Below are positions 1,882 through 57,271 of a DNA stretch of 59,386 bases, in pieces. The notes below the pieces were generated by a model. The model made no database searches. It was not told where the DNA came from and worked only from the letters and a program-made list of their open reading frames with translations. This DNA is from an uncultured Phycisphaeraceae bacterium. GTDB lineage: Bacteria > Planctomycetota > Phycisphaerae > Phycisphaerales > UBA1924. A program made the translations under genes and the position numbers. Where the stretch lies: positions 1 to 59,386 of the forward strand of contig CALCCF010000082.1 in NCBI GenBank assembly GCA_937899905.1, in the 5' to 3' direction. Position 1 is the first letter of the stretch. Each line of letters starts with the position of its first letter.

Positions 1882-3207
1882 TTACGGGCACCCCCCGTCG
1901 AACGCGTTCTGGAAGGCGAGGAAGTCGAAGATCGTCAGCGCGCCATCGCCGTCGAAGTCGGCCCGCGGGTCTTCGGTGTCGAAGAGGTTCTGGAACTCGA
2001 GGAAGTCGAAGATCGTCAGCTCGCCGTCCCCATCGAGGTCGGCCGGGCAGAAAGGGCCACAGAGGTTCAGCAGCACGCTCGCGGCGTTGCCGGTCGCGTT
2101 GAACACGACGATGTCCGGGTCGTTGTCGCCATCGAGATCGCCCAGGCCCACACCCCCAGGCCCCGAGCCGCCGCCGTACTGGTCCCGCGGCGCGAACGTG
2201 CCGTCGCCAACGCCCGTCAGCACGCTCACGCTATTGCCCAGGAGGTTGGGCACCGCCATGTCCAGCACGCGATCGCCGTCCAGGTCGGCCAGCGCGACAT
2301 CGAACGGCCCGTTGCCGGCGGCGTAGCGCACCTGGGGATCGAACGTGCCGCCGCCACGGTTGATCAGCACGCTCACGTCGTCGGTCACCTCGTTCGCCAC
2401 GACGATGTCCGGCTCGCCGTCGCCGTTGAGATCGCCCACGGCCACGCTCTGGGGCACATCGCCCGCGGCGTAGCGCACCTGCGGCGCAAGCGTCCCGTCG
2501 CCGTTGCCCATCAGCACGCTAACGTCGTCGCTCAGCACGTTGGCGACGACCAGGTCCAGGCTGCCGTCGCGGTTGACGTCGCCCAGCGCCAGCCGCCACG
2601 GCCGGTCGCCGGCGGTGTACGTTACCGGCGCCGCGAACAGGCCGCCGGTGTTGAGCATCACGCTCACGACGTCGAGGTCCTGGTTGGGCACGATCATGTC
2701 CAGGTCGCCATCGCGGTCGAGGTCGCCAAGGACAACGTCGCGCGGCTGATCGCCGACCGCCACGCGCCGCTCGAGCCCGAACGTGCCATCACCGTTGCCC
2801 GGCAGCACACTCGCGTCGTCGGTGCGCGCGTTGGGCACGACGATGTCCAGGCGGCCGTCGTTGTCGATGTCCCCGAGCGCCACGGCCTGGGGCTGCTCGC
2901 CAACGTCCCGCCTGCTCGATGGCCCGAAGGTCCCATCGCCAAGGCCCAGCCGGATGGTGACGTCGTTGCTGAAAGAGTTCGCCACGACCATGTCGAGCGT
3001 GCCGTCGCGGTTCAGATCGCCGAGCGCGATGCCCGAAGGGAACGACCCCGCGGCGTACCCAACTGGCCCGGCGAACGCCTGCCCGGGTGAGCACGATTGC
3101 GCGAGGGCCTTGGATGGGCCCAGTGCCGCGGGCCCGCACACAACGACGCAGGCGGCGACCGCAGTGCGGATCGGCATCGGACAAGGCTTCTTGAGGTATG
3201 CTGGCAT
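1882..3207 (-). CDS. Secreted FG-GAP/VCBS repeat protein with C-terminal GC-type dockerin
   Basis: 441 aa. An N-terminal signal peptide ends near ALAQS. About seven tandem blade repeats of roughly 45 residues follow, with Ca-binding motifs such as GDLNRDGTLDMVVAN and the blade end VSVLMGNGDGT, giving a predicted beta-propeller. The last 55 residues are two EF-hand-like loops (ADLDGDGELTIFDF and ADFDGDGALTIFDF, each followed by FQN.F), ending in GGCP. The start is supported by an AGGAG-like site just upstream. It is the downstream-most of four similar minus-strand genes. Extracellular or surface location is inferred; ligand unknown. Confidence 0.9.
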   Translation of the reverse strand: MPAYLKKPCPMPIRTAVAACVVVCGPAALGPSKALAQSCSPGQAFAGPVGYAAGSFPSGIALGDLNRDGTLDMVVANSFSNDVTIRLGLGDGTFGPSSRRDVGEQPQAVALGDIDNDGRLDIVVPNARTDDASVLPGNGDGTFGLERRVAVGDQPRDVVLGDLDRDGDLDMIVPNQDLDVVSVMLNTGGLFAAPVTYTAGDRPWRLALGDVNRDGSLDLVVANVLSDDVSVLMGNGDGTLAPQVRYAAGDVPQSVAVGDLNGDGEPDIVVANEVTDDVSVLINRGGGTFDPQVRYAAGNGPFDVALADLDGDRVLDMAVPNLLGNSVSVLTGVGDGTFAPRDQYGGGSGPGGVGLGDLDGDNDPDIVVFNATGNAASVLLNLCGPFCPADLDGDGELTIFDFLEFQNLFDTEDPRADFDGDGALTIFDFLAFQNAFDGGCP

Positions 3208-3258
3208 GTCTCTCTCCTCTGCTCTTTGGTCCCCTGATCTGTCGTCGGAACGCGATTG

Positions 3259-4560
3259 CTATGGACAGCCGGTGTCGAAGGCCTTCTGGAACTCAATGAA
3301 GTCGAAGAGCGTTAATGCTCCGTCGCCGTCAAAGTCGGCGATGGGGCTGCCGGCGTCAAACAGGTTGAGGAATTCGAAGAAGTCGAAGACGGTGGCCTCG
3401 CCGTCGCCGTCCAGATCCACGCGGCAACGAAACGGGCCGCACTGGTTCAGCAGCACACCGACGGCGTCGTCGTTGCTGTTGGTGATCGCAAGGTCCGCGT
3501 CGCCGTCGGTATCAAAATCGGCTACGGCGATCGACGCAGGATTCTCGCCGACGCCGTAGAGCACCTGGGTCGTAAACGTGCCGTCGCCGGTGTTCAGCAG
3601 CACGCTGAGGTCATCACTGGCATCGTTCGCGACGGCGAGATCTGGAGCGCCGTCGCTGTTCAGGTCGGCGATTGCGACGGACTGCGGAGAGATCCCCACG
3701 TCGTAGGGCACACGGACGTCGAAGGTGCCGTCGCCGGGGTTGGGCAGCACGCTCACCGTGCCGTCCAGGTTGGTGATGGCCAGGTCGGCATCACCATCGG
3801 CGTCCAGATCCCCGAGCGACATCGACCAGGGGAAGCTGCCGGCACGGTATTGCTGCTCGCTGGTGAGCGTCCCCGCGCCGTCGTTGAGGAACACGCTGAC
3901 CGTGTCGCTCGAGAAGTTTGGCACGGCGATGTCTGGATCGCCGTCGCCATCGAGATCGCCGATCGCCGCCACCTGGGGCTGGTCGCCCGCCGCGTAGTGA
4001 ATCTCGGGCGCGAAGGTGCCATCGCCGTTGTTCAGCAACACGCTCACGGTGTCGTTGCCGATGTTGGTCGTCACGAGGTCAACGTTTCCATCGCCATCCA
4101 GATCGGCCGCGGATACGCTTGCAGGGGAGCGCTCGATGTCGTATTCGACACTGTCCGCGAAGGATCCATCGCCCTCGTTGAGCAGCACGCTCATGGTGTC
4201 GTCCTGGAAGTTGGTGACCGCGAGGTCGGGGCTGCCGTCGCCGTCGAGGTCGGCGATCGCAATCGAGGTTGGCAGGGTGCCCACGACGTAGCGCCCGACC
4301 CGCACAAACGCACCGACGCCATCGTTGCGCAGGGTCACGACGGTGTCGTCGAAGGCGTTGACCACGGCCAGATCGCCGTCACCATCGCCATCGAGATCGC
4401 CAACGACGATCGAAACGGGCCCGTCGCCGGCGTCGTAGGCCGTCTGGGGTCTGAAGATCTCGGTGGGGTCGCACGGCTGGGCGAGCGTGGTGGCTGCGGC
4501 CAGGGCCGAGGCCATCAACGCGGAAGGGACCGCGGGCAGCGCGGTGCGGAATTCTGGCAT
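3259..4560 (-). CDS. Secreted FG-GAP/VCBS repeat protein with C-terminal GC-type dockerin
   Basis: 433 aa. I chose the ATG at 4560 because GGAGGAG lies just upstream and the next residues form a signal peptide ending AAATTLAQP. About seven blade repeats carry D-x-D-x-D-G loops (GDLDGDGDGDLAVVNA) and VSVLLNNGDGTF ends. The C-terminus is the duplicated dockerin-like module (VDLDGDGEATVFDF, ADFDGDGALTLFDF) ending KAFDTGCP. It is closely related in architecture to its neighbour at 1882-3207, so the pair are probable tandem duplicates. No enzymatic motif was seen. Confidence 0.9.
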   Translation of the reverse strand: MPEFRTALPAVPSALMASALAAATTLAQPCDPTEIFRPQTAYDAGDGPVSIVVGDLDGDGDGDLAVVNAFDDTVVTLRNDGVGAFVRVGRYVVGTLPTSIAIADLDGDGSPDLAVTNFQDDTMSVLLNEGDGSFADSVEYDIERSPASVSAADLDGDGNVDLVTTNIGNDTVSVLLNNGDGTFAPEIHYAAGDQPQVAAIGDLDGDGDPDIAVPNFSSDTVSVFLNDGAGTLTSEQQYRAGSFPWSMSLGDLDADGDADLAITNLDGTVSVLPNPGDGTFDVRVPYDVGISPQSVAIADLNSDGAPDLAVANDASDDLSVLLNTGDGTFTTQVLYGVGENPASIAVADFDTDGDADLAITNSNDDAVGVLLNQCGPFRCRVDLDGDGEATVFDFFEFLNLFDAGSPIADFDGDGALTLFDFIEFQKAFDTGCP

Positions 4561-4641
4561 CGTGGGTCTCCTCCTCACCACAGCGTACAGGAAGCCGCCC
4601 ACTCACGCAAGCGAATCTTCGAGGATCGGATGCACGCGCTG

Positions 4642-6495
4642 CTACGGGCAGCCGGCGTCGAAGGCGTTCTGGAACGCCAGGAAGTCGAACAGCGTGAGGC
4701 GTCCGTCGCCGTCGAAGTCGGCGATGGGGTCGCCGGCGTCGAAGAGGTTCTGGAACTCCAGGAAGTCGAACAGCGTGAGTCGGCCATCGCCGTCGATATC
4801 TGCGTCACAGCTTCCCACGTCACGGCCGAACACGATGAAGCTGGAGCCTGAGTTCAGCACGCCACCGACGCGTGCAATGGGCGCGCCGATGATCAGGTCG
4901 GGCATGCCATCTCCATTGACGTCGCCCGCGGAGTCGACCGAGAAGCCGCTGCGATCCCCATCCTCAGCTCCGCCCAGCCGGAAACCGTTTACGCCGTCCA
5001 AGTCAAACAAACGAAGTCTCGCTGGGAACGTGTCGCCAGAAGCGACGTCGCGACCATAGACGACGTAGCTCGCACCGGCACGGAATCGGCCAGCGGGATC
5101 GGCCGTCCGCGCGCCGATGATCAAGTCGTCGATGCCGTCCCCATCCACATCTCCGGCCGCGGCGACCGAGCAGCCGCTGGCATCCTGGAATGCCACACCA
5201 TCTATTCGCAGGCCCGTCACTCCGTCAAGATCCTCCAGCCGGAGCACCGGCGGGAACGTCGCGCCCGATGTGGTATCGCGGCCGAAGACCACGAAGCTTG
5301 AGCCTGCGTCTGTGTAGAACGACGCGAACTCCGCCTTGTACGCGCCGATGATCACATCGTCGATGCCGTCGCCATTGATGTCGCCCGCGGTCGCGACCTG
5401 ATCGCCGCTCTCGTCCGAGATATCGACGCCCAGCGCCCCAAACCCGTTTGTACCATCGATGTCGGCCAGTTCGAACACGGCCGGAAAGACCTCTCCCAAG
5501 GTCGAGTCGCGGCCGAAGACGACGTAGCTCATCCCCAAGTTTCCTCGGCTATCTGCTCCGACGCCAGTGGCACCGATGATCAGATCGTCGAGGCCATCGC
5601 CATTCACGTCTCCCGCAAAGGCGACAGATCTGCCGCTGTAGTCTCCTTCGCTCACTCCATCCAGTCGGAAACCGTTCGTTCCGTCGATGCTCGCAAGCGA
5701 CAAGGTCGCAGGAAACGGTGTTCCAGATGACACGTCTCGGCCGTAGATGACGTAGCTTGAGCCGGCATCAGTCCGGCCGTCGGGGTCTGCATCGAACGCC
5801 CCGATGATCAGGTCGTCGATTCCGTCCGCGTTGACATCGCCAGCCGCGGCCACCGCGCTGCCACTGTTGTCATTCTCACCTGCGCCATCGACTCGAAATC
5901 CGTTCTCGCCGTCGAGATCTGCGAGTTGCATGACCGCAGGGAACGTGGCGCCGGATGCTCCGTCTCGGCCGAAGACTACAAAGCTCGAGCCCGCATTGGT
6001 GAGGCCGCCGGGATCCGCCCGCGGCGCCCCGATGATCAAGTCGTCGATACCATCGCCATTCACGTCGCCAGCGGAGTCGATTCGCTGGCCTGTGTAGTCT
6101 CCGGCGATCACGCCATCCAGGCGGAATCCGTTCGTTCCATCGAGCTCATCCAACTCCATAGCGGATGGGAAAGGCGTACCCGAAGAGCTATCTCGGCCGA
6201 AGAAGACGTAGCACGAGCCGGGATCCGTGCTGGAGTCGCGCGCTCCCGTGGCCCCAATGATGAAGTCATCCAAGCCGTCACCGTTCACATCACCGGCAGA
6301 TGCAACGGCGCTGCCGCTGAAGGTGTCGGACGTGACGCCATTGATGCGGAACCCGATCTCACCATCGAGATCGGCGAGTTGGAGAGCAACGGGAAACGGG
6401 TCTCGCAGGCCGCCCTGGGCAAGCACCATCGGTTCGCAGGCCAGCGGCAGGCCAACCACGGCTGCCAGCGTTCCCAAACGATTACTCGGACGCAT
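4642..6495 (-). CDS. Secreted integrin-type FG-GAP repeat protein with GC-type dockerin
   Basis: 617 aa from the ATG at 6495, which begins a signal peptide ending near EPMVLAQGG. The frame stays open further upstream, but that stretch only translates the 21-bp array and is rejected. The body has about seven repeats of roughly 65 residues in integrin-alpha style: SAGDVNGDGIDDLIIGAP, then an A-G-S-S-Y-V-V-F-G-R strand, then an L-x-D-L-D-G-x-N-G-F-R blade. It ends with the duplicated dockerin (ADIDGDGRLTLFDF, ADFDGDGRLTLFDF) and NAFDAGCP. This differs from the shorter VCBS-type blades of the two downstream genes. Confidence 0.9.
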   Translation of the reverse strand: MRPSNRLGTLAAVVGLPLACEPMVLAQGGLRDPFPVALQLADLDGEIGFRINGVTSDTFSGSAVASAGDVNGDGLDDFIIGATGARDSSTDPGSCYVFFGRDSSSGTPFPSAMELDELDGTNGFRLDGVIAGDYTGQRIDSAGDVNGDGIDDLIIGAPRADPGGLTNAGSSFVVFGRDGASGATFPAVMQLADLDGENGFRVDGAGENDNSGSAVAAAGDVNADGIDDLIIGAFDADPDGRTDAGSSYVIYGRDVSSGTPFPATLSLASIDGTNGFRLDGVSEGDYSGRSVAFAGDVNGDGLDDLIIGATGVGADSRGNLGMSYVVFGRDSTLGEVFPAVFELADIDGTNGFGALGVDISDESGDQVATAGDINGDGIDDVIIGAYKAEFASFYTDAGSSFVVFGRDTTSGATFPPVLRLEDLDGVTGLRIDGVAFQDASGCSVAAAGDVDGDGIDDLIIGARTADPAGRFRAGASYVVYGRDVASGDTFPARLRLFDLDGVNGFRLGGAEDGDRSGFSVDSAGDVNGDGMPDLIIGAPIARVGGVLNSGSSFIVFGRDVGSCDADIDGDGRLTLFDFLEFQNLFDAGDPIADFDGDGRLTLFDFLAFQNAFDAGCP

Positions 6496-6632
6496 CGCAA
6501 TCCCCCTCGCGCCGACGGCGGGCCGGCTCGTTCGAACAAGGTACAGCAATCGGCTGGACGGATCAACGGGACTTTCTGGGCTCCGCACGCGTTCCTTCGC
6601 GCCGGCCCCGCCGATAACGCCCCGAATCTCAC

Positions 6633-6656
6633 GTCCGATTACCAAAACCGTCCTGG
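6633..6656. repeat. 24-bp element, copy 2, flanking 21-bp array 2
   Basis: Matches 1612-1635 at 22 of 24 positions and has the same placement: immediately next to a 21-bp array, on the side away from a dockerin gene stop codon. It lies upstream of the signal-peptide start of the 4642-6495 gene, so it could also sit in that gene's leader. Confidence 0.75.
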
Positions 6657-6665
6657 CGCCCCCGA

Positions 6666-6875
6666 GAGGAGTTCTGGCCGAGCGCAGAATCGTTCTGGGC
6701 ACGCCACGAGCGATTCTGCTGGCGACACGAACTCCTCGCGTCGCGATCAGAACGGCACGCGTCGCGACCAGAACTCCTCGCGTCGCGATCAGAACGGCTC
6801 CCATCGCGGCAAGAACGCCTCCCGTCGCGATCGGAACGGCTCCCGACGCGACACGAACGGTGCTCCACGCCACGC
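6666..6875. repeat. 21-bp tandem array 2
   Basis: The 416-bp gap 6496-6911 holds ten 21-bp units. Seven start exactly with GAAC at 6729, 6750, 6771, 6792, 6813, 6834 and 6855; three more degenerate ones precede them (6666, 6687, 6708). A typical unit is GAACTCCTCGCGTCGCGATC plus A. The array starts about 37 bp past the stop of the minus-strand dockerin gene at 6912. There are no spacers between units, so this is not a CRISPR array. Role unknown. Confidence 0.9.
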
Positions 6876-6911
6876 GAGCCGTGCCCGCCAGCCTCGCCCA
6901 CCTCGAGCGTG

Positions 6912-8690
6912 CTATGGACACCCCGCCGAAAACGCGTTCTGGAAGGCCAGGAAGTCGAAGATGGTAAAGCCGCCGTCGCCGTCGAAGTCGGCTCGCGGGT
7001 CCATGATGTCGAAGAGGTTCTGGAACTCGAGGAAGTCGAAGATGGTCAGCGCGCCGTCGCCGTCGAGGTCGGCAGCGCAGGGGGCGCCGCCGAGCTGCCG
7101 GCCGAACACGACGAATGCCCGTTCCTCGCCGTACCCCGGCGACGGGTAGGTGCCGACGGCCAGATCTTCCAAACCATCGCCGTTGAGATCGCCGACGAAC
7201 TCGAGTGCAAAGCCGATGCGATCGCGGCTGGTGTCGCTGCCGACAATTACGAACCCGTTCGTGCCGTCGATGTCGCTGAGCTGCACGACCGGAGGGGGTG
7301 GGCTGTCGTCGCCAAAGAGGATGTAGACCTGCCCGAGTTCGCCTTCGGCGTATGGCGCCGAGATCGCGATGTCGTTGATGCCGTCGCCGTTGATGTCGCC
7401 AGCGGCGAGCGAACGGCCGCTGGCACCAAACTCCAGGTCGCCCTCGATCGTGAAGCCGTTCGTGCCGTCGAGGTCGCCAAGGTCCAGTTCGGGCGGGAAT
7501 CCGTCATCTCGCCCGAAGACCACGCGCGTGACGCCTGCGGAGTAGCGGCCGCCCACGTTTTCCAGAGGCGCACCGATCGCGAAGTCGTCCACGCCGTCGC
7601 CGTTAATGTCACCGACGCTCGCAACGGCCTGGCCGCTGTTGCCATACGTGCCCGTGGGGGGGACGACCTTAAAGCCATTCGTGCCATCGAGGTCGTCGAA
7701 CTCGTCGAGCACGCTCGATCGATCGGTATCGCCGTACACAACGTAGGAGATGCCGGCTCCGTACTGGCGGCGGGGCGCTCCTACGAGGAAGTCCTTGAAC
7801 CCGTCATCGTTGACGTCGCACACCGCGACGAGCGAACTACCGGCTCGCTCGTCCGGCTCGTCTCCGGCGATGCGCGCGCCGTCATCGGGCGTGAGATCGC
7901 CAACGTCGACGGTGGGGGGGAAAGGGTCAGCCGGATAGTTGCGGCCGTAGAACACGTACGCTGCGCCGACGAATGATGCACCGCCGGAACTGTATTGCAA
8001 TGCGCCAACGGCAAGATCCTCGAAGCCGTCGTTGTCAATATCACCGGAAGACGCCAGAGACGAGCCAAAGTAGTCGAATGGACTCTCGCCCCTGAACCGC
8101 ACTCCGTTGGTCTCGTCAATATCCTCGAGATTGAACAGCGAGGCAAACGGTCCGACCACGCCGACATCACGGCCGAAGACCACGTAAGCCTCGCCCGCAT
8201 CCCGCTTGCCATCAGGATCGGCTCGCTCCGCGCCGATCAACACGTCATCGATGCCGTCGCCATTCACATCGATGCCGCCGCTGACGGCCCGGCCTGCGCG
8301 GTCGCCCCGATTGACGCCGTCGATTCGGAGCCCGTCTTCGCCGTTCAGCGTGCTCACATCAACCACCGGCGGTAGTGTGGAGCCGCCAAAGAACACATAC
8401 GCGGCACCCTTGAACCCGCCCCCGTACTCGGCACCAACGATCAGATCCTGGAATCCGTCGCCGTCTAAGTCGCCGGCGCTCGCCACGTCACGACCAAAGA
8501 ACGCCCCAGACCCAGCGCCCTCCAGCCTGAACCCGGTCGTGCCGTCCAGTTCCATGAGGTCGAGCACCGAAGGGAACGGGTCGTCCTGCCCCAGCACGCC
8601 TGCGGGCACCGACCATGCCATGCCGCATGCGGCCAGCACAGAAATGGCCCTACGACGACCGGCCCGATCCCCAAAATCTGCCTCGTGCAT
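6912..8690 (-). CDS. Secreted integrin-type FG-GAP repeat protein with GC-type dockerin
   Basis: 592 aa. A signal peptide (about residues 12-35, ending GVLGQDD) precedes about seven integrin-alpha-like FG-GAP blades (VASVGDINGDGVDDFAIGAP and similar). The tail is the duplicated dockerin-like module (ADLDGDGALTIFDF, ADFDGDGGFTIFDF) ending NAFSAGCP. The start is supported by GGGAG about 8 nt upstream. A 37-nt stretch of its dockerin DNA (7007-7043) is identical to 1977-2013 in the last gene of the cluster, suggesting recent duplication or gene conversion. It is the first gene of the minus-strand cluster. Confidence 0.9.
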   Translation of the reverse strand: MHEADFGDRAGRRRAISVLAACGMAWSVPAGVLGQDDPFPSVLDLMELDGTTGFRLEGAGSGAFFGRDVASAGDLDGDGFQDLIVGAEYGGGFKGAAYVFFGGSTLPPVVDVSTLNGEDGLRIDGVNRGDRAGRAVSGGIDVNGDGIDDVLIGAERADPDGKRDAGEAYVVFGRDVGVVGPFASLFNLEDIDETNGVRFRGESPFDYFGSSLASSGDIDNDGFEDLAVGALQYSSGGASFVGAAYVFYGRNYPADPFPPTVDVGDLTPDDGARIAGDEPDERAGSSLVAVCDVNDDGFKDFLVGAPRRQYGAGISYVVYGDTDRSSVLDEFDDLDGTNGFKVVPPTGTYGNSGQAVASVGDINGDGVDDFAIGAPLENVGGRYSAGVTRVVFGRDDGFPPELDLGDLDGTNGFTIEGDLEFGASGRSLAAGDINGDGINDIAISAPYAEGELGQVYILFGDDSPPPPVVQLSDIDGTNGFVIVGSDTSRDRIGFALEFVGDLNGDGLEDLAVGTYPSPGYGEERAFVVFGRQLGGAPCAADLDGDGALTIFDFLEFQNLFDIMDPRADFDGDGGFTIFDFLAFQNAFSAGCP

Positions 8691-15986: not shown

Positions 15987-17420
15987 TTACGAGCGTTTGA
16001 TCGTGCGCAGGATCATGATGACCGTGCGCCAGATGATCTTGAGGTCGAGAAGCAGGCTCATGTTCTCGACGTACTCGATGTCGTAGCGGATCCACTCCTG
16101 GAAGTCGCTGCCGGCGGCGCGCGTGCGGCTTACCTGCCAGAGCCCCGTTACGCCGGGTCGCACGCTCAGCCGCGCTTCACGCCAGCCGGGGCAGTACTGG
16201 TTCTCTTTGTACGGGCTGGGTCGCGGCCCGACAACCGACATGTGTCCGAGCAGCACGTTGATGAACTGCGGAAGTTCGTCGATTTGGAGTGTGCGGATGA
16301 ACCGCCCAACCTTGGTCAGTCTTGGGTCGTTCTTGATGTAGAACTGCGGCCCGTCGACCTGGTTCATCGCGGCGATCTCGGCCTTCATCTTCTCCGCGTC
16401 CTTGCGCATGGAGCGGAACTTCAGGCACGGGAACTCCTTGGCGTTCAGCGATTCGCGCGTGTGGGCGAAGAAGAACGGCCGTCCGTCCTCGATCAGGATC
16501 GCGAGCATCACGAACGGGTAGATTGGCAGCGTGAGCAGCAACGCCACGACGGCGAACGCGATGTCGAAGCCGCGCTTGATGACGCGTTCGAGTGGTGGTC
16601 GATATCGCGGCCGCAGCGGTTCGGTGCGTTCGGTGGGTTCGAGGTCGAGCCACTGGACATCGCCGGGATCGGGCGCGCGTTCCGGGTCGTCCCAGACGAT
16701 GTCCGGCCCGACGATCAGCGTGTCGGCGTCGACCTTCTGGCCTGCCCCGACCCACACTCGGCCGACGCACTGTGCGCCGGGATCTATGCTGGCTGAGGGA
16801 TCGCTCCAAAGACCATCACGCCCGGGCGTCGCGCGATTCACGGTGCTTCCCGGCTTCTGCCAGTGGTCGACGAGCGTGCGTGCGCTGCGTAGTAACTCGG
16901 TGGGATCCTCAGCGTCGAATACCCTCGCGGAGGTCTGCATCGGCCAGCGCTGCCCGGGCCGAACGGCCTGCCGGAGCTTGCGCCACCCATCGCGCGGCGA
17001 TTCGGCCTCTTGCCAGAGCTTGGCGACGGTGGGGCGGTTCGTGATCGCCGCACGCGCGAATCGCGAGTCGTGGCTGCCGTAGATGCGCTCGAAGCGCTCG
17101 AAGTCACCGGCGGGTCCGGTCACGATGCGTTCGCGGTACGCGTGGTCGTCCTGGTCTTGGAGCCGGAGCATCACGAGATCGGCATCGTCCCACACGATGC
17201 GATCGACCACGGGGCCGATGTCGAACAGGCACAGCACCCGCTGCTGCAGCAGCAAGAAGAGATGGGCGTGAGGCACCAGCGGCGTCGGCATCGCGCGTCG
17301 GACCACCTGCACGCCGCGCGACGCCCAGTAGCGATCGTGGATCGCGATGGGCGAGAGCCCAAACACCGTGGGCATCGCGTCCGGCTGCTCGGCGGGGTTC
17401 GCTTTGGGCTCGGCGATCAT
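15987..17420 (-). CDS. Polyprenyl-phosphate sugar-1-phosphate transferase (bacterial sugar transferase)
   Basis: 477 aa. The C-terminal 190 residues are a canonical sugar-transferase domain: one membrane-associated hydrophobic helix (FDIAFAVVALLLTLPIYPF), KFRSMRKDAE, IDELPQFINVLLGHMSVVGP and RPGVTGLWQVSRTRA. It transfers a sugar phosphate to undecaprenyl phosphate to start exopolysaccharide assembly. The N-terminal 290 residues do not show the usual multi-helix and CoA-binding-like region, and are of unknown fold. Its start overlaps the stop of the EpsI-like gene by 4 nt (ATGA). It is the last gene of the exosortase operon. Confidence 0.88.
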   Translation of the reverse strand: MIAEPKANPAEQPDAMPTVFGLSPIAIHDRYWASRGVQVVRRAMPTPLVPHAHLFLLLQQRVLCLFDIGPVVDRIVWDDADLVMLRLQDQDDHAYRERIVTGPAGDFERFERIYGSHDSRFARAAITNRPTVAKLWQEAESPRDGWRKLRQAVRPGQRWPMQTSARVFDAEDPTELLRSARTLVDHWQKPGSTVNRATPGRDGLWSDPSASIDPGAQCVGRVWVGAGQKVDADTLIVGPDIVWDDPERAPDPGDVQWLDLEPTERTEPLRPRYRPPLERVIKRGFDIAFAVVALLLTLPIYPFVMLAILIEDGRPFFFAHTRESLNAKEFPCLKFRSMRKDAEKMKAEIAAMNQVDGPQFYIKNDPRLTKVGRFIRTLQIDELPQFINVLLGHMSVVGPRPSPYKENQYCPGWREARLSVRPGVTGLWQVSRTRAAGSDFQEWIRYDIEYVENMSLLLDLKIIWRTVIMILRTIKRS

Positions 17421-18065: not shown

Positions 18066-18929
18066 TTACTGGTACGCAAGCGCGTACCGACGCACGGGGA
18101 TCTGGGCGTACCGCAGCACGCGGATGCCAAGGTAGAGCAGCGCGAACGCCAGCAGCAGCGTGAGCCACCCGCTGATCTGGGCCATGACGCCCGCCGATGC
18201 CGGCCACACGCTTGCGACCGCTGAAAACGGGACGAGCCGGACGATGTTGGCGACCAATGCGACGAGTGGGCTGGCGAGCACGAGGCCGATGCGCACGCTC
18301 TGCCGCAGCGGCGTGCCGTACGCGAACGCGTACGTCACCAGGCCGATGGCCGCGATCATGCGAGTTCCCGAGTTGTCGCCCAGGCTCTGCTGCGATGAGC
18401 CCACGATCAGCTCGCCGCCGTTCGCCGACGCCGCGACGCCGAATGTCTCCAGCACGCCGGCTGTGAACGCGAGCGTCCACGCACCCAGCACGTCTGCGAT
18501 GGGCAGCAGCCAAGGCATGGGCGCTGGCGCCAGGAACAGGAGCGCGACGACCGCCGGCAGCATCCGCATGATGACGCTCAGTCCGACGACCGACCAGATC
18601 GCCCCGATGACTACGCCGATGGCGCCGAGGTGCAGCGCGAGCGTGTGTCCGTTCGCGCCACCGAGCAGATACAAGAGGCCGGCCAGCGCCGCGACGATCG
18701 GCCCGATCCAAAGGCCCTGCCGACCCGCGCCACGCAAGCGTCCTCGCCGGCACAAGGCCAGCCAACCGGCTACGGCGGGTACGAGCACGATGTACCCGTT
18801 GTCTGGGTCGGCCGTGGCGCTGAGGTAGATATCGCGCCACGCGGGCCAGCACGCCGCGACGGCCAGGCCGATCGCGACCACGGCTTGCACCAGCGTCCAA
18901 CGCGTCCATGTCCGGGAAGCCGCGGTCAT
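18066..18929 (-). CDS. Exosortase/archaeosortase-like membrane protein lacking the canonical Cys
   Basis: 287 aa, about eight transmembrane helices. The ATG at 18929 overlaps the upstream stop by 4 nt. Exosortase layout is evident: DPDNGYIVLVPAVAGWLAL near the start, then SLGDNSGTRMIAAIGLV where the family has an ACSG motif, then NIVRLVPF with the conserved Arg231. The nucleophile position is Asn186, the later His position appears to be Ala250, and the only cysteines are at 27 and 60. Canonical exosortases cleave C-terminal PEP-CTERM-type signals. This copy may be non-catalytic or a variant class. Confidence 0.8.
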   Translation of the reverse strand: MTAASRTWTRWTLVQAVVAIGLAVAACWPAWRDIYLSATADPDNGYIVLVPAVAGWLALCRRGRLRGAGRQGLWIGPIVAALAGLLYLLGGANGHTLALHLGAIGVVIGAIWSVVGLSVIMRMLPAVVALLFLAPAPMPWLLPIADVLGAWTLAFTAGVLETFGVAASANGGELIVGSSQQSLGDNSGTRMIAAIGLVTYAFAYGTPLRQSVRIGLVLASPLVALVANIVRLVPFSAVASVWPASAGVMAQISGWLTLLLAFALLYLGIRVLRYAQIPVRRYALAYQ

Positions 18930-19747
18930 GCGGTGGCACCCGTCGATCGGTCGGTGAGCACTTGGCCCTTGGTCACCACGCTGCCGGGCCCGAGCACGCA
19001 ACGGGCGACGACCGCCCCCGCGCCCACGCGCGCCCCGCGTAGCACAACAGCCTCGCGCATGCGCGCCGATGCGTTGACCTCGGCCCCGCGCTCCACGATC
19101 GCAAAGGGCGCCCCCCCGTGAACCACGCCGAGCGCTTCGAGATACTGCTCGCGATCTCGCATCGGCAGTGACGCACGTTGGCCACGGCTCGCGTACGCGA
19201 CACGCACGCGGTGCGTCTGAGCGATCTTCGGCAGGCACTGCTCCTTGAAGTCGAGGTAGCCGCTGCCAGGGATTGCACGCATGGCCTCGGCCGAGACGAG
19301 CATGATGCCGGTGGGGGTACCGTCGTGCTCGGCGAGCAGCGCGACGTCGGCGTCGAGGCCCAGCAACAGGTCAACCACCTCGGTAAGCGGTTGCCTGAGC
19401 ACGCAGCCGCCCGTGGCGACAAGCATGAGCCCCTGACGCTCGCTCGCCGCGGCCCGCAGCACGCCGCCGGTGCCGAGGAACGCGACATCATCGGGCTCCA
19501 CGCTCGATCGATCGGATGGCATCGACGCGGGCTTGGAGCTGTGGCGGTCGATGAGGACGCCCAGGTCCGGGGCGGATCCGAGGTGCTCGCCGAGCCGCTC
19601 GTGGGCTGCGATCCATCGCTGGCCGACGGTCTCGTCAGCGGTCAGCGGCAGGTCGAGCACGTTGCGGCCCGCGGCCTTGAGCAACGGGGTCGCGCGCACG
19701 GCGCCGGCAAACAGCAGCATCTGCCGGATGGCGTTCGCGCCGCTCAT
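18926..19747 (-). CDS. Degenerate sugar-phosphate nucleotidyltransferase-like protein with left-handed beta-helix tail
   Basis: 273 aa from the ATG at 19747 (AAGGGCGAGG just upstream). The middle resembles an NTP-transferase fold (FLGTGGVLRAA, compare the usual PLGTAGA). The last 50 residues are hexapeptide-like (REAVVLRGARVGAGAVVARC, VLGPGSVV). The N-terminal G-x-G-T-R nucleotide-binding loop is absent, and the usual G-D metal site is replaced by VATGG, so catalysis is doubtful. It is the first gene of the four-gene exosortase operon. It might be a regulator or scaffold in polysaccharide synthesis. Confidence 0.65.
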   Translation of the reverse strand: MSGANAIRQMLLFAGAVRATPLLKAAGRNVLDLPLTADETVGQRWIAAHERLGEHLGSAPDLGVLIDRHSSKPASMPSDRSSVEPDDVAFLGTGGVLRAAASERQGLMLVATGGCVLRQPLTEVVDLLLGLDADVALLAEHDGTPTGIMLVSAEAMRAIPGSGYLDFKEQCLPKIAQTHRVRVAYASRGQRASLPMRDREQYLEALGVVHGGAPFAIVERGAEVNASARMREAVVLRGARVGAGAVVARCVLGPGSVVTKGQVLTDRSTGATA

Positions 19748-27423: not shown

Positions 27424-28290
27424 ATGTTGAGCACGCCGATGAATCGCGGCCGATTGGCCGTTGCTGTTACCGCTCTATTTGGGTGTGTGGCCGGCTCCGC
27501 GGCCGGACAGGACCTCCTGGCGGGCAACGGCCCGCTGTCGTCCATGCCCGCGGCCCACGAGACCGGAGCCGACCTTATCTGGGCCGTGCCCGAGGGTGCG
27601 TCGGCTGGAGTGAGCGCGTACTCAACGCTCGAGTATCGCTTGGCCGAGCGTGTCGAGGTGTCCGCCTCGACGATCGAGTCGGTCGTCGTGTACGGCTACC
27701 AGCAGGGCGCCATCGCGGGGCCGACGATCGACTTCCTGGGCGTCGAGCTCTGGGCCGGCCAGCCCGGCCAGCCCGGCAGCACCCGTGTGGCGGGTGACAT
27801 CTCGGCGAACGCCCTTTCGTCCGCGGAGTTCGCCGACGCGTATGTCGCGCTGCATGGCGTGTCGTTCACGACCGACCGCCCGGTCTATGCGCTCACGGCT
27901 GGCGACCTCGATTGGTCGGTGCAGGCCGGCGAGTACTGGCTCGTGTGGTCGATGGGCGGTTCACTCGATGGCGGCCCGTACAGCCCGTACCTAGGCGACG
28001 AGACGGCGCCGGCCGATGGCAGCGCGCTGCAGCGTGTGCTCGGCTCGTGGCGGCAGGCACGCAACCGCACCGAGGGCGGCTTGCAGGTATCGCTGCCGTT
28101 CGAGGTGTACGGCTCGACCGCCTGCGTGGCCGATTGCGACGGCGACGGCGCGCTGACCATCTTCGATTTCCTGTGCTTCCAGAACGCCTATTCGGAGGGC
28201 GAGGCCTCGGCCGACTGCGACGGCGACGGCTCGGTCACGGCAGCCGACTTCAACTGCTTCCAGGCCTCATTCATGGCCGGTTGCGGCTGA
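27424..28290 (+). CDS. Small secreted protein with GC-type dockerin
   Basis: 288 aa, start preceded by GGAGGGG. A signal peptide (ending GSAAGQD) leads into a roughly 200-residue beta-rich domain (STIESVVVYGYQQG, FLGVELWAGQPGQPGST, PVYALTAGDLDWSVQAGEYW) that I do not recognise. The C-terminal module has ADCDGDGALTIFDFLCFQN and ADCDGDGSVTAADFNCFQ, ending FMAGCG. Here extra cysteines occur inside the dockerin, unlike the 1-8.7 kb group, and the second loop has lost the IFDF sequence. Cell-surface location is inferred. Confidence 0.85.
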   Translation: MLSTPMNRGRLAVAVTALFGCVAGSAAGQDLLAGNGPLSSMPAAHETGADLIWAVPEGASAGVSAYSTLEYRLAERVEVSASTIESVVVYGYQQGAIAGPTIDFLGVELWAGQPGQPGSTRVAGDISANALSSAEFADAYVALHGVSFTTDRPVYALTAGDLDWSVQAGEYWLVWSMGGSLDGGPYSPYLGDETAPADGSALQRVLGSWRQARNRTEGGLQVSLPFEVYGSTACVADCDGDGALTIFDFLCFQNAYSEGEASADCDGDGSVTAADFNCFQASFMAGCG

Positions 28291-36270: not shown

Positions 36271-38715
36271 ATGTCTATGTATGGACGCGCATTGGGTTGG
36301 TTGGATCGCCTCGCGGGACGGGACCAGAACCGGACCGATCTGGCGATGATGGAGACGCTCGAGCCGCGGGTGCTGCTCGATGCGAGCTTCCCGGACATCA
36401 CGGATCTGGTCGATCCGACGAACACCGTGGTGAGGATCAAGACCACGCTGGGCGAGATCGACTTCGAACTGTTCGACAACGCGGGACCTGGCGGCGCTAG
36501 TGCGGCCCCGGTCACGGTCGAGAACTTCCTGAGTTATGTCAACTCGGGTCGGTACCTGGACAGCTTCTTCCATCGCTCCGTCCAGGTGAGCTCGACCAAC
36601 CCCGACATCGACGGCGATCCGTTCGTGATCCAGGGCGGTGGCTTCATCTTCACGGATGAGGACGGCCTGAGCCGCGTCGATACGTTCGACGCGATCGAGA
36701 ACGAGGCCGATCCGGACCGCTCGAATGTTGAGCGTTCGCTCGCGATGGCGCTGACGCAGAGCATCGGCATCGACACCGCGACGAGCCAGTTCTTCATCAA
36801 CCTTCGGGATAACAACGGCAGCCTCGGCGACGGTGACATCGATCTCGACGCCCAGGACTTCACGGTATTTGGCCGCGTGGCGAACGATCGCTCGTGGGGC
36901 GTCGTCGAGGCGATCCAGAACCTGGAGACCTTCGTCTTTGCGGACATCCTTGTCGACACCGATGGCAACCCGGTGTTGGACGCGTCCGGGCGAACGCAGT
37001 TCCTTGACAACCCGGACGCCAACGTGGTGAGCTTCGCGCTCAGCGACGTCCCGGTGCGGAGCACTCCCGCACCGATTCCGCCGGAAGAGGTTCGCAGCAC
37101 GGCGCTCGAAGAGCAGTTCCTGGTGTCGGTCACGAGCGCGCTGGTGATCAAGCCGGCCGAGGCGGAGACGTTCTTCACGTTCCTGGTCGGGCACCCCGAG
37201 GGCTACGCGAACGAGACCAGCCGGACGTATGTCGAGCTGACGTCGAACACGGCGGGCTCGACGCCATCCTTCTACCAGGTGGTCCTTCGCTATGAGACGG
37301 GCGTGCGAGACCAGGTCATCTCGAGCGGCACGCTGCAGCCCGGGCAGCGCACCAGCATCGCCATCAGCGATCCCGACCTCACGCCCGAGGATCAGGCGCG
37401 GCGGTTCGCACCGTTTGCGATCGAGATCCAGAGCACGCGCGGCCTGAGCGCGTCCCTGACGCACTCGGACTTTGGCGCGACGCTGAGCGAGTCGTTCGTG
37501 AACTTCACCGACCTCGATGCTCGGGGTACTGATGCGTTCAACACGTGGGCGTTCGGCGGCACCGCGTCGACGTTGGTCCCGCCGGATTCCGATGCGGACG
37601 GACGCATCGACAACGTGGACTTCCGTGAGTCGTACGTCGTGTGGCAGAACCTCGACGACATCGATGGAACGGTGACGCTCACGCTCTACACCGATGCGAG
37701 CACGTTCAATCGGATCAGCTTCCCACTCGAAGGGAACCGGCGTGGTGGGGCCGAGCTCCACAACCTCTTCGCTTCGATGACGCAGACGGCGCAGGCCGTG
37801 CTGCTCGAGTCGGACGTGCCCATTATCGCGGCGCTGAGCACGTACGACGTGCTGCTCAACTCCGGCGGCACCGCCACGGTCGCGACGAGCGCGTACAACG
37901 CGATCGGGTCGATCAACGGCGGCGACCGCGAGGGTGTGCTCGCCGGCGTGCGGTACTCCGCCGGCGATGGCGAGGAAGCGTACCTGAGCTTCCTGAACAC
38001 GGCCCGCAGCGGCGCGGTGGTCCAGCTGATCTTCACCGACACCGACGGCAATGAGGCCACGACCGGCGTCGTCTTGGGCGCTCGCGATCTTGGGTTCTTC
38101 AACCTGTCGCTGATCCCTGGCGGGGCGTTCGATCCTGATGAGTTCCTGACGGTCCGCTACTCGTCGTCGGTGCCGATCGCGGGGCAGTATGTTGCCGTGA
38201 TCGACAACGAGATCATGTCGACCTCGTTCCAGACGCAGCTCTCGGACTTCGTGATCCTTTCGGGCGGGTTCGATGCGGGTGATCGCTCCGGCACGACCGG
38301 CGACGTGATTTCGCTATATAACCCGTATGACGATGACGCCGAGGTGACGCTGAACTTCACGATCCAGTTCTTCTTCTTCGATCGCGACATCTTCGTGCAG
38401 TTTGGGTTCTTGCCGATGCTGGCACCGGGTGAGCGCGCCGACATCACGGCCCGAGACTTCACGGATGTTCTCGCGACGCTCGAGCTGGGCGAGGACTGGG
38501 GCCGATATGGCATCGCGATCGCGGGTATCGCGTTGCCCTCGGGCGGTGGCGTGACCCCGCAGGCCGGTCAGTTTGCCGCTTCGCTGTCGCGATTTGGGTC
38601 GGACCCGTTTGGGCCGGGCAACTCGAGCACGATCAGCACGGGCACGTTCGCGGAGGGCACGGTCCGCGATCTTTCCGATGCGATCTTCGTGACGCCTCCC
38701 GGTACAACGACCTGA
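36271..38715 (+). CDS. LEPR-XLL surface protein with cyclophilin-type peptidyl-prolyl isomerase domain
   Basis: 814 aa. Residues 20-40 hold METLEPRVLLDAS, the LEPR-XLL motif of planctomycete exported proteins. Residues about 50-250 are a cyclophilin: VRIKTTLGEIDFELF, FFHRSVQV with the catalytic Arg, VIQGGGF and TSQFFINL, so the isomerase site looks intact. The remaining 550 residues form repeated beta-rich domains (NTWAFGGTAS, ESYVVWQNLDD, EAYLSFLNTA, DVISLYNPYDDDAEVTL) of unknown family. No dockerin. Start supported by GGAGAG. A terminator follows. Confidence 0.85.
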   Translation: MSMYGRALGWLDRLAGRDQNRTDLAMMETLEPRVLLDASFPDITDLVDPTNTVVRIKTTLGEIDFELFDNAGPGGASAAPVTVENFLSYVNSGRYLDSFFHRSVQVSSTNPDIDGDPFVIQGGGFIFTDEDGLSRVDTFDAIENEADPDRSNVERSLAMALTQSIGIDTATSQFFINLRDNNGSLGDGDIDLDAQDFTVFGRVANDRSWGVVEAIQNLETFVFADILVDTDGNPVLDASGRTQFLDNPDANVVSFALSDVPVRSTPAPIPPEEVRSTALEEQFLVSVTSALVIKPAEAETFFTFLVGHPEGYANETSRTYVELTSNTAGSTPSFYQVVLRYETGVRDQVISSGTLQPGQRTSIAISDPDLTPEDQARRFAPFAIEIQSTRGLSASLTHSDFGATLSESFVNFTDLDARGTDAFNTWAFGGTASTLVPPDSDADGRIDNVDFRESYVVWQNLDDIDGTVTLTLYTDASTFNRISFPLEGNRRGGAELHNLFASMTQTAQAVLLESDVPIIAALSTYDVLLNSGGTATVATSAYNAIGSINGGDREGVLAGVRYSAGDGEEAYLSFLNTARSGAVVQLIFTDTDGNEATTGVVLGARDLGFFNLSLIPGGAFDPDEFLTVRYSSSVPIAGQYVAVIDNEIMSTSFQTQLSDFVILSGGFDAGDRSGTTGDVISLYNPYDDDAEVTLNFTIQFFFFDRDIFVQFGFLPMLAPGERADITARDFTDVLATLELGEDWGRYGIAIAGIALPSGGGVTPQAGQFAASLSRFGSDPFGPGNSSTISTGTFAEGTVRDLSDAIFVTPPGTTT

Positions 38716-55321: not shown

Positions 55322-57271
55322 ATGAACACCCATGGCCTCACCGCTTCGATCCTGCTGGCCCTGGCCGCCGGCACCGCCTCGGCCCAGTCGGCCGACTTCT
55401 ACCTGCACGTGCTGCACCACAACGACGCCGAGAGCCAGCTGCTCAACGCCGGTGCCGGCGCGCTCGAGGACTTCGGCGGTGTCGACCGCTTCGCGACGGT
55501 CGTCGCCAACCTGCGGGCCGAGGCCCAGGTCTTCCCGGCTGGCTTCGACAGCGGCTCGGTGCTCATCACCAGCGGTGACAACTTCCTGGCCGGCCCCGAG
55601 TTCAGCGCCAGCCTCGACGCGGGCGTGCCGTTCTTCGACACCATCGCCCTCGACCTGATCGGCTACGACGCCTTCGCGATCGGCAACCACGAGTTCGACT
55701 TCGGCCCCGACGTGCTCGAGGACTTCATCGCCGGCTTTACGACCAACCCGGCCCCCTTCGTCTCGGCCAACCTGGACTTCTCGGGCGAGGCCGGCCTGCA
55801 GGCGCTGGTTGACAGCGGCCGCATCGCCTCGAGCACGGTTATCGACGTTGCCACCAGCATGGGCGGCACCGTCCAGGTCGGCATCGTCGGCGCGACGACC
55901 ACCAGCCTGCCCTTCATCTCCAGCCCGCGCGGCGTGGTCGTCAGCGACATCCTGCCGGCCGTGCAGGCCGAGGTCGATGCGCTGACCGCCGATGGCGTGG
56001 ACATCATCCTGCTGACCAGCCACCTGCAGGGCGTGACCACCGAGCTCGACCTCATCGGCAGCCTGCGCAACGTCGACGCCGTGATCGGCGGCGGCGGCGA
56101 CGAGCTGCTGGCCAACCCCGATGATCTGCTGATCCCCGGCGACGAGCCCGCGGTGGTTCTGGGCGAGAGCGGCTACCCGCTGACACGGACCGACGCCGAC
56201 GGCGCGACCGTGCCCGTCGTGACCACCGCCGGCGCGTACAAATACGTCGGCCGCCTGATCCTGGGCTTCGACACCGAGGGCAACCTGGTCGAGGTGCTCG
56301 ACGAGTCCGGCCCGGTGCGCGTCTCGGGCATCGGCGATGACGCCGTGCTGGGCGATCCGCTCATCCGCAGGCTCGTTGTGAACCCAGTCCAGGACGCCGT
56401 CGATGCGCTGGCCGCCAACGTGATCGGCACCAGCGAGGTCGACCTCGACGGCCGCCGCTCGAGCGTCCGCAACATCGAGACGAACCTGGGCAACCTCATC
56501 GCTGACAGCTTCCTGGCCACGGCCACCGAGCTGGCCCCGACTTTCGGCACGCCCGTGCCCGACGTCGCGCTGGCCAACGGCGGGGGCATCCGCAACGACA
56601 GCATCATCCCCGCCGGCGACATCACCGAGCTGGACACCTTCGACATCCTGCCCTTCACCAACTTCGTGACCGTCGTCGAGGCGATCCCCGCGACGCAGTT
56701 CAAGGAGATCCTCGAGAACGCCGTGAGCCGCCAGGGCCAGTCCAACGGCCGCTTCGCGCAGGTCGCCGGCTTCACCTTCGAGTACGACTTCCGCGGCACG
56801 GCCCAGGTGATCGAGGACGACGTCGTCACCGTGGCGGGCGAGCGCGTCCGCCGCGTGACGCTTGCCGATGGCACCGCCATCGTCGAGGACTTCGCCGTTG
56901 TCCCCGGCGCACCCGAGGTCGACGTCGCGATCGTCGACTTCCTGGCCCGCGGCGGCGACCAGTACCCGTTCCGAGGCGCCCCCTTCACCAGCCTGGGCGT
57001 GACCTACCAGCGCAGCCTGTTCGACCAGATCTCGGTTCGCCTGGGTGGCCTCGTCGCCGAGTCGGCCTACCCCGAGGGCGGCGAGGGCCGCATCGTGCCC
57101 AGCTGCTACGCCGACTTCAACCTGGACGGCGGCGTCGACCTGTTCGACTTCCTGGCTTTCCAGAACGCCTTCAACGACGGCGACCTCTCGGCCGACTGCG
57201 ACCGCGATGGCGAGCTGGATCTGTTCGACTTCCTGTGCTTCCAGAACGCGTTCGACCAAGGCTGCTCGTAA
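55322..57271 (+). CDS. Secreted 5'-nucleotidase/cyclic-phosphodiesterase with GC-type dockerin
   Basis: 649 aa. A signal peptide ends ASAQSAD. The metallophosphatase half begins with LHVLHHNDAESQLL and contains LITSGDNFLAG, AIGNHEFDFGPDVLEDF and ILLTSHLQGV. The nucleotidase C-terminal half has NLGNLIADSFLATA, VALANGGGIRND and DILPFTNFV. The tail is the duplicated dockerin (ADFNLDGGVDLFDFLAFQN, ADCDRDGELDLFDFLCFQN) ending NAFDQGCS. Codons are strongly C-ending compared with neighbours, consistent with high expression. It would salvage phosphate or nucleosides at the surface. Confidence 0.9.
   Translation: MNTHGLTASILLALAAGTASAQSADFYLHVLHHNDAESQLLNAGAGALEDFGGVDRFATVVANLRAEAQVFPAGFDSGSVLITSGDNFLAGPEFSASLDAGVPFFDTIALDLIGYDAFAIGNHEFDFGPDVLEDFIAGFTTNPAPFVSANLDFSGEAGLQALVDSGRIASSTVIDVATSMGGTVQVGIVGATTTSLPFISSPRGVVVSDILPAVQAEVDALTADGVDIILLTSHLQGVTTELDLIGSLRNVDAVIGGGGDELLANPDDLLIPGDEPAVVLGESGYPLTRTDADGATVPVVTTAGAYKYVGRLILGFDTEGNLVEVLDESGPVRVSGIGDDAVLGDPLIRRLVVNPVQDAVDALAANVIGTSEVDLDGRRSSVRNIETNLGNLIADSFLATATELAPTFGTPVPDVALANGGGIRNDSIIPAGDITELDTFDILPFTNFVTVVEAIPATQFKEILENAVSRQGQSNGRFAQVAGFTFEYDFRGTAQVIEDDVVTVAGERVRRVTLADGTAIVEDFAVVPGAPEVDVAIVDFLARGGDQYPFRGAPFTSLGVTYQRSLFDQISVRLGGLVAESAYPEGGEGRIVPSCYADFNLDGGVDLFDFLAFQNAFNDGDLSADCDRDGELDLFDFLCFQNAFDQGCS

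Follow-up and report, generated by a model that had tools for sequence, protein, structure and literature searches.

We analysed a stretch of DNA of 59,386 nucleotides from an uncultured Phycisphaeraceae bacterium (the window), which is the whole of contig CALCCF010000082.1 (C82) in a genome of 3.63 Mb and 113 contigs (the home genome, G000), and studied the module in which six of its secreted proteins end. This module belongs to a real and large family that is already known under the label NF041540 dockerin_GC. Its near-terminal cysteine (Cys) is one half of a pair, with the other half about three residues before the first loop of the module, and is probably not an anchor, as judged from the way in which the two residues occur together. 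The bond between them is most likely an intramolecular disulfide. With moderate confidence we favour the reading that the dockerin is clipped end to end by this disulfide and docks non-covalently to a common receptor other than a cohesin. With a probably structural role for the Cys, attention shifts to the binding partner of the dockerin.

Results

All six proteins carry the shared C-terminal module where the original prediction had placed it (Table 1). Based on their alignment the module is a duplicated EF-hand of about 55 residues with two DxDxDG loop-helix repeats. Gly-Cys stands at or beside the C-terminus in each protein, and the endings are GCP (four proteins), GCG (one) and GCS (one), as had been described. 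The predicted duplication of the D-x-D-x-D-G loop was confirmed, while FDF.xFQN did not hold as an exact motif, with FDFFEFLN, FDFIEFQK and AADFNCFQA also present. The near-terminal Cys was indeed fixed; the prediction had missed a second invariant Cys, which lies three residues ahead of loop 1 and so at the opposite end of the module, and these two are the invariant Cys of the alignment. The cargo is unrelated, as claimed: four proteins have FG-GAP repeats, one is 5'-nucleotidase-like and one has no Pfam match in its cargo part. The public name 'GC-type dockerin' applies as well, since all six proteins scored 32.3-45.4 bits with NF041540, over its curated cut-off of 29. The Pfam model Dockerin_1 (PF00404) reached its gathering cut-off in one of the six, was listed below it in three and was not listed at E 0.1 in two.

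At least 150 matches to NF041540 over the cut-off were found in the home genome, from 237 candidates, and none in any of the 14 control genomes, so the family is not a product of chance. Across the phylum 37 of 392 genomes gave a match at E 0.001 when up to 15 candidates of each genome were scored; candidate numbers at first look were highest in the genus and family of the window. A sequence search gave 79 loci of named relatives, which came from metagenome assemblies of Phycisphaerae, Phycisphaeraceae and other Planctomycetota and, in one case, from an uncultured bacterium.

To count the Cys in the home genome, the DNA around the matches was searched with a profile in which the Cys were masked and the ends cut off. 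This yielded 169 module-bearing reading frames, of which 163 had a stop; among the six without a stop in the fetched DNA, four have N-terminal modules and two are cut by the end of the locus and may duplicate full ones. Both Cys were present in 155 of the 163 frames, the first only in 2, the last only in 5 and neither in 1, a census that is biased because the loci were picked with a Gly-Cys-type model. Of the eight exceptions, two are single-repeat modules with a Cys on each side and two are degenerate; the other four are a split match, a cut locus, a module in which the terminal Cys is replaced by Arg, and an N-terminal module. Most of the 163 frames end in GCx or xGC, with Cys last or last but one.

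Covariation was therefore assessed in relatives whose modules may have or lack the terminal Cys, at loci obtained partly via NF041540, whose matches often stop before Gly-Cys, and partly via Pfam Dockerin_1. The set comprised 89 complete C-terminal modules from 14 other genomes, after 13 further matches that were incomplete or not terminal had been dropped. Both Cys were present in 34 modules, the N-terminal one only in 9, the C-terminal one only in 3 and neither in 43 (Fisher odds ratio 54, p 6e-13; genome-stratified p 9e-10). Looser rules for completeness gave 34, 10, 4 and 48 of 96, in the same order. The covariation holds within single genomes, for example G251 (8, 3, 0 and 10), and is less clean in G278 (9, 1, 3 and 8). 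The linker between the repeats had no Cys in 77 modules, one in 3 and two in 9.

A second pair, consisting of a Cys at position 2 of the loop (D-C-D) and one in the helix (F-L-C-F), was complete in 7 of 312 home-genome repeats and absent from the other 305, with none discordant. In the named relatives, 15 listed partial matches being left out, it was complete in 47, absent in 159 and discordant in 3 of the 209 repeats caught by the pattern. The window holds two examples. Protein 27424-28290 has six Cys outside its signal-peptide-like start, all within the module and at paired positions 234/287, 238/251 and 265/278, and the four Cys of protein 55322-57271 also all lie in the module, at 595/648 and 626/639. 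A different composition was seen at loci L085-L099 and L102-L109 (assemblies B67T1L10 and B31T1B8), where a module has up to about eight Cys and in many cases degenerate DxDxDG loops (for example CDPDPACDIFDFLCFQN). In these modules calcium may have given way to disulfides.

Covariation by itself would fit equally well with bonds between molecules, in which the two Cys would link tagged proteins into chains or bind to Cys of a surface partner. The totals of Cys past the predicted signal peptide were even in 79 of 124 home-genome proteins and odd in 45 (p 0.003), and the odd totals would suit such intermolecular bonds; 26 of the 124 proteins have no Cys outside the module. We consider this arrangement improbable, as the extra Cys also form matched pairs inside one repeat, two half modules retain both Cys, and a Ruminococcus dockerin, according to an excerpt of PMC5934362, shows that the two ends can sit together. 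The disulphide linkage that was one of the original suggestions fits as a bond within the module and not as a link to something else.

In five home-genome proteins the module lies right after the signal-peptide-like start, and Gly-Cys is internal with at least 170 residues downstream of it. These proteins are encoded at L216, L219, L228 and L013, and a similar one occurs in a named relative (locus L055). One of the five is complete; this protein and one more are by eye alpha/beta hydrolases resembling polyethylene terephthalate (PET) hydrolases. The complete protein is one of the 106 scanned for cargo, in which Pfam gave a single PETase match. Two single-repeat modules of the home genome keep the Cys on either side. 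Half dockerins of this kind, with a single repeat and Cys on both flanks, were noted at L114, L045, L040, L120 and L121.

Because the Cys is kept when the module moves to the N-terminus, a structural bond is favoured over a C-terminal anchor or cleavage signal. Covalent anchoring and a processing signal had been suggested on the basis of the fixed Cys. A reading in which the near-terminal Cys serves covalent attachment, lipidation or C-terminal processing, and so fixes the protein to the cell surface, could draw on the last or last but one position of the Cys in most of the 163 frames and on the word 'anchored' in the NCBI product name. We nevertheless regard it as very unlikely: the terminal Cys covaries with the Cys before loop 1, Gly-Cys is internal in the five N-terminal modules, and even Cys totals prevail. 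Sorting signals of the PEP-CTERM or LPXTG type consist of a motif followed by a transmembrane helix and a basic tail at the C-terminus. Here Gly-Cys is at or beside the last residue, and neither a hydrophobic segment or transmembrane helix nor a basic tail follows it in the window alignment or in the 163 home-genome frames.

A structure model of the module was built from 71 sequences of the window and the named relatives. Its predicted local distance difference test score (pLDDT) was 94.1 and its predicted template modelling score (pTM) 0.79, and it has two long helices (17-28 and 44-56). The top three of 11 Foldseek rows were dockerins, with E above 1. When the 30 top Foldseek chains were passed to a second aligner, 13 rows were listed and all were dockerins, the best with Z 5.4 (2y3n chain B).

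The loop and helix positions 8-20 are nearly identical in both repeats of 153 home-genome modules, with L-T-(I/L)-F-D-F-L-(A/E)-F-Q-N, making the presumed recognition face symmetric. We compared this face between genomes on the choice-of-anchor B proteins, which are present in 20 of 41 genomes and which end in a dockerin in the family of the window and in family f4, except in G368, and not in family f5. Their modules were 56% identical to modules on other cargo in the same genome and 39% identical to those of orthologues in other genera; for the recognition face these values were 60% and 33%, respectively. The likeness within the genome was higher in 14 of 14 comparable modules (12 genomes; of 19 modules), where some genomes had sets as small as two modules and two genomes were counted twice. 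Such sameness is expected if the tags of one genome all fit one partner. Judged by codon identity at identical residues, which was 0.66 compared to 0.55 expected from the codon use of the cargo and which reached 0.9 in 23 of 11,628 module pairs, recent copying of modules alone is insufficient to account for the sameness, the excess pointing to some shared descent. By this pattern the module would dock to a common partner.

The tagged proteins are secreted, as had been predicted: by a crude rule 129 of 140 full home-genome frames have a signal-peptide-like start, compared to 13 of 32 control frames (the other frames of the window). Cargo was scanned in 106 of the 140, namely frames of up to 900 residues within the residue limit (109 kept), less three with doubtful starts. 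All 106 matched dockerin_GC at E 1e-5. Among the 25 of 31 Pfam families listed, FG-GAP (25 proteins), beta-helix (5) and subtilase (3) occurred repeatedly, and haem peroxidase, spondin, glucose dehydrogenase and others were single cases. A tag common to exported proteins of unrelated cargo could also be recognised during export through the outer membrane instead of being a means of attachment; as the module is found at either end of the protein, we think this has little likelihood.

PEP-CTERM is a transmembrane cleavage signal, and exosortase was found in 41 of 41 genomes. The median number of PEP-CTERM proteins was 18 in family f1 and 11 in f4, which bear dockerins, compared to 82 in f3 and 56 in f2. 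These medians suggest that the dockerin has replaced PEP-CTERM; we did not retain this as a result, as the correlation of the two across genomes was only weak (rho -0.31, p 0.048, kinship ignored) and f5 was low in both. Dockerins were not found together with PEP-CTERM in the literature searched. The home genome has three exosortases, one of them in the window (18066-19238, minus strand), and three were present in each of the five sampled genomes of the genus, with a weaker third copy (93-110 bits) listed in each. The gene at 15987-17420, near the exosortase of the window, is similar to exopolysaccharide sugar transferases, with a score of 253.6 bits against a cut-off of 295.55.

The four FG-GAP genes of the window lie in tandem on the minus strand (1882-8690). 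The GTG start of 4642-6921 is probably too early, with the real start internal and near window position 6495, since codon 143 opens a signal-peptide-like segment. In 55322-57271 the Pfam match of the cargo is the 5'-nucleotidase C-terminal domain.

Table 1. Proteins of the window that end in a GC dockerin, and the modules with the codons of their two invariant Cys (the one before loop 1 first, the one in the Gly-Cys end second).
Feature	Coordinates	Strand	Cys codons	Basis
Secreted FG-GAP propeller protein, 441 aa, C-terminal GC dockerin	1882..3207	-		NF041540 + Pfam
GC dockerin module	1885..2049	-	2047-2049, 1888-1890
Secreted FG-GAP propeller protein, 447 aa, C-terminal GC dockerin	3259..4602	-		NF041540 + Pfam
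GC dockerin module	3262..3426	-	3424-3426, 3265-3267
Secreted FG-GAP propeller protein, C-terminal GC dockerin	4642..6921	-		NF041540 + Pfam
GC dockerin module	4645..4809	-	4807-4809, 4648-4650
Secreted FG-GAP propeller protein, 592 aa, C-terminal GC dockerin	6912..8690	-		NF041540 + Pfam
GC dockerin module	6915..7079	-	7077-7079, 6918-6920
Secreted protein, 288 aa, C-terminal GC dockerin, cargo without Pfam match	27424..28290	+		NF041540
GC dockerin module	28123..28287	+	28123-28125, 28282-28284
Secreted 5'-nucleotidase-like protein, 649 aa, C-terminal GC dockerin	55322..57271	+		NF041540 + Pfam
GC dockerin module	57104..57268	+	57104-57106, 57263-57265

Discussion

The end-to-end clipped dockerin could work as follows. 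The tagged protein would first be exported by a Sec-type route, after which the two EF-hand loops would bind calcium and the fold would bring the ends of the module together. A bond would then form between the Cys some three residues ahead of loop 1 and the Cys of the final Gly-Cys, and this disulfide would stand in for the non-covalent N-to-C 'intramolecular clasp' of some cellulosomal dockerins. In this clipped state the module, symmetric over its two repeats, would attach the cargo non-covalently to one receptor outside the cytoplasm, which would be specific to the genus and not a recognisable cohesin. In a Ruminococcus dockerin a Trp-Pro stacking clasp holds both ends and mutation of the clasp lowers stability, as stated in an excerpt of PMC5934362 that cites Slutzki 2013. 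By analogy, the simplest reading is that the disulfide does the job of this clasp here. No disulfide-clipped dockerin was described in the portions of the literature searched that were available (including PMC6461901, PMC5934362, PMC11557425 and PMC12484212); a title cited in an excerpt of PMC12484212 refers to engineered disulfides between cohesin and dockerin.

Several results weigh against the clipped and docking dockerin. The Cys pair was discordant in 12 of the 89 relative dockerins, and the Cys total was odd in the 45 of 124 proteins mentioned above. Foldseek gave no match below E 0.001, and our confidence was slightly lowered because the other eight of its 11 rows were not dockerins. 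Duplication of modules could also give the sameness within a genome, as the codon identity indicates. Regarding proteins that could form the bond, VKOR was found in none of the 10 genomes of the family that were searched (2 of 18 genomes overall), and DsbA-like Thioredoxin_4 was not found in the home genome; these searches did not extend to classical DsbA or DsbB. The window does encode an exported-looking thioredoxin-fold protein related to TlpA/ResA (49858-51216), which scored below the cut-offs of the VKOR and Thioredoxin_4 models. With respect to a receptor, the cohesin model PF00963, searched in 41 genomes, gave no match in the home genome at a limit as loose as E 10, nor any at E 1 among the five genomes of the genus. 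A second cohesin profile (A4), made from seven planctomycete cohesin-like stretches, gave none in the home genome and one weak match (E 0.69) in one other genome of the genus.

Across the family (10 genomes) no PF00963 match passed the cut-off; G278 had one below it, and this stretch is included in A4. A cohesin too divergent for both PF00963 and A4 would escape these searches. Matches over the cut-off occurred in G220, G287 and G127, none of which is rich in dockerin_GC. A cohesin-like receptor, which the original prediction had named as something to look for, was hence not found in the genus by PF00963 or A4 save for the one weak match, and the cohesin was rejected as a candidate. A cohesin-dockerin system has its cohesin partner in the same genome, and none was found in the home genome with either model.

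LEPR-XLL proteins were considered as a scaffold and also rejected. They occur in the genus, but do not track the tag, as a match was obtained in only one of nine genomes of the dockerin-bearing family f4. The home genome has a LEPR-XLL protein of up to 1,989 residues on contig C20 (locus L384, 1476-7445, minus strand), by eye subtilase-like with a long tail, and each of the four remaining genomes of the genus has a listed frame or frames of 1,831-1,911 residues with this motif, in one genome below the cut-off. In the window, 36271-38715 (plus strand) encodes a protein without Cys that has a LEPR-XLL motif at its N-terminus and a cyclophilin-type isomerase domain. For three further genomes of the genus, LEPR-XLL frames of similar length were listed, the likeness being one of length and motif alone.

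The failure to find a cohesin in the genus, apart from one weak match, together with the very diverse cargo, would also suit a module without any receptor, which would act as a calcium- and disulfide-stabilised cap against unfolding or proteolysis and would share the clip with the docking dockerin. We consider such a cap unlikely, since the face is nearly fixed in both repeats of the 153 modules and differs between genomes even where the cargo is orthologous, which is beyond the needs of a cap.

Pursuing the docking dockerin further, we tentatively propose, as a picture that may well prove wrong, that well over 100 exported proteins are displayed via one disulfide-clipped dockerin without a cohesin in the genus and, more loosely, in its family and in a neighbouring one. 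The face of the receptor would co-evolve with the tags genome by genome, and PEP-CTERM sorting would have been largely replaced. With the present analysis, an annotation label that had no explanation gains a mechanism that can be tested. At least 150 dockerins in a genome without a recognisable cohesin point either to a new receptor fold or to a job of the dockerin that is not described in the literature searched, and either outcome would broaden a textbook protein pair, that of cohesin and dockerin. For protein engineers, a dockerin that keeps its shape with less calcium might be of use.

Of the known systems, the type I-III cellulosomal dockerins (PF00404) share with the module the duplicated calcium loop and helix, the two-fold symmetric face and an apparently similar model fold, and some of them have a stabilising N-to-C clasp (excerpt of PMC5934362). 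The clasp is apparently built from Cys here, whereas theirs is a Trp-Pro stack. In addition, the cargo is not obviously cellulolytic in the 25 of 31 Pfam families listed, no cohesin was recognisable in the genus beyond the one weak match, and only one of the six window proteins reaches the Pfam cut-off. A 'planctosome' has been proposed in freshwater Planctomycetes, with a model that includes recognised cohesins and peptidases (excerpt of PMC6461901). It likewise concerns non-cellulosomal dockerin proteins in planctomycetes, whereas in our home genome no cohesin was found next to at least 150 tags. PEP-CTERM/exosortase sorting is similar in using C-terminal tags on many exported proteins, and both systems occur in these genomes; the dockerin differs in being a folded module. 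The two-fold symmetry of the module is shared with the dual-binding dockerins of PMC12484212, as far as its excerpt describes them. The closest relation is NF041540 dockerin_GC, which is matched by the six window proteins and by each of the 106 home-genome proteins scanned and which is a name without a mechanism in the literature searched, where the phrase 'GC-type dockerin' was not found. What the present analysis adds to this label is the Cys pair, the copy number, the N-terminal and half modules, and the genome-specific faces.

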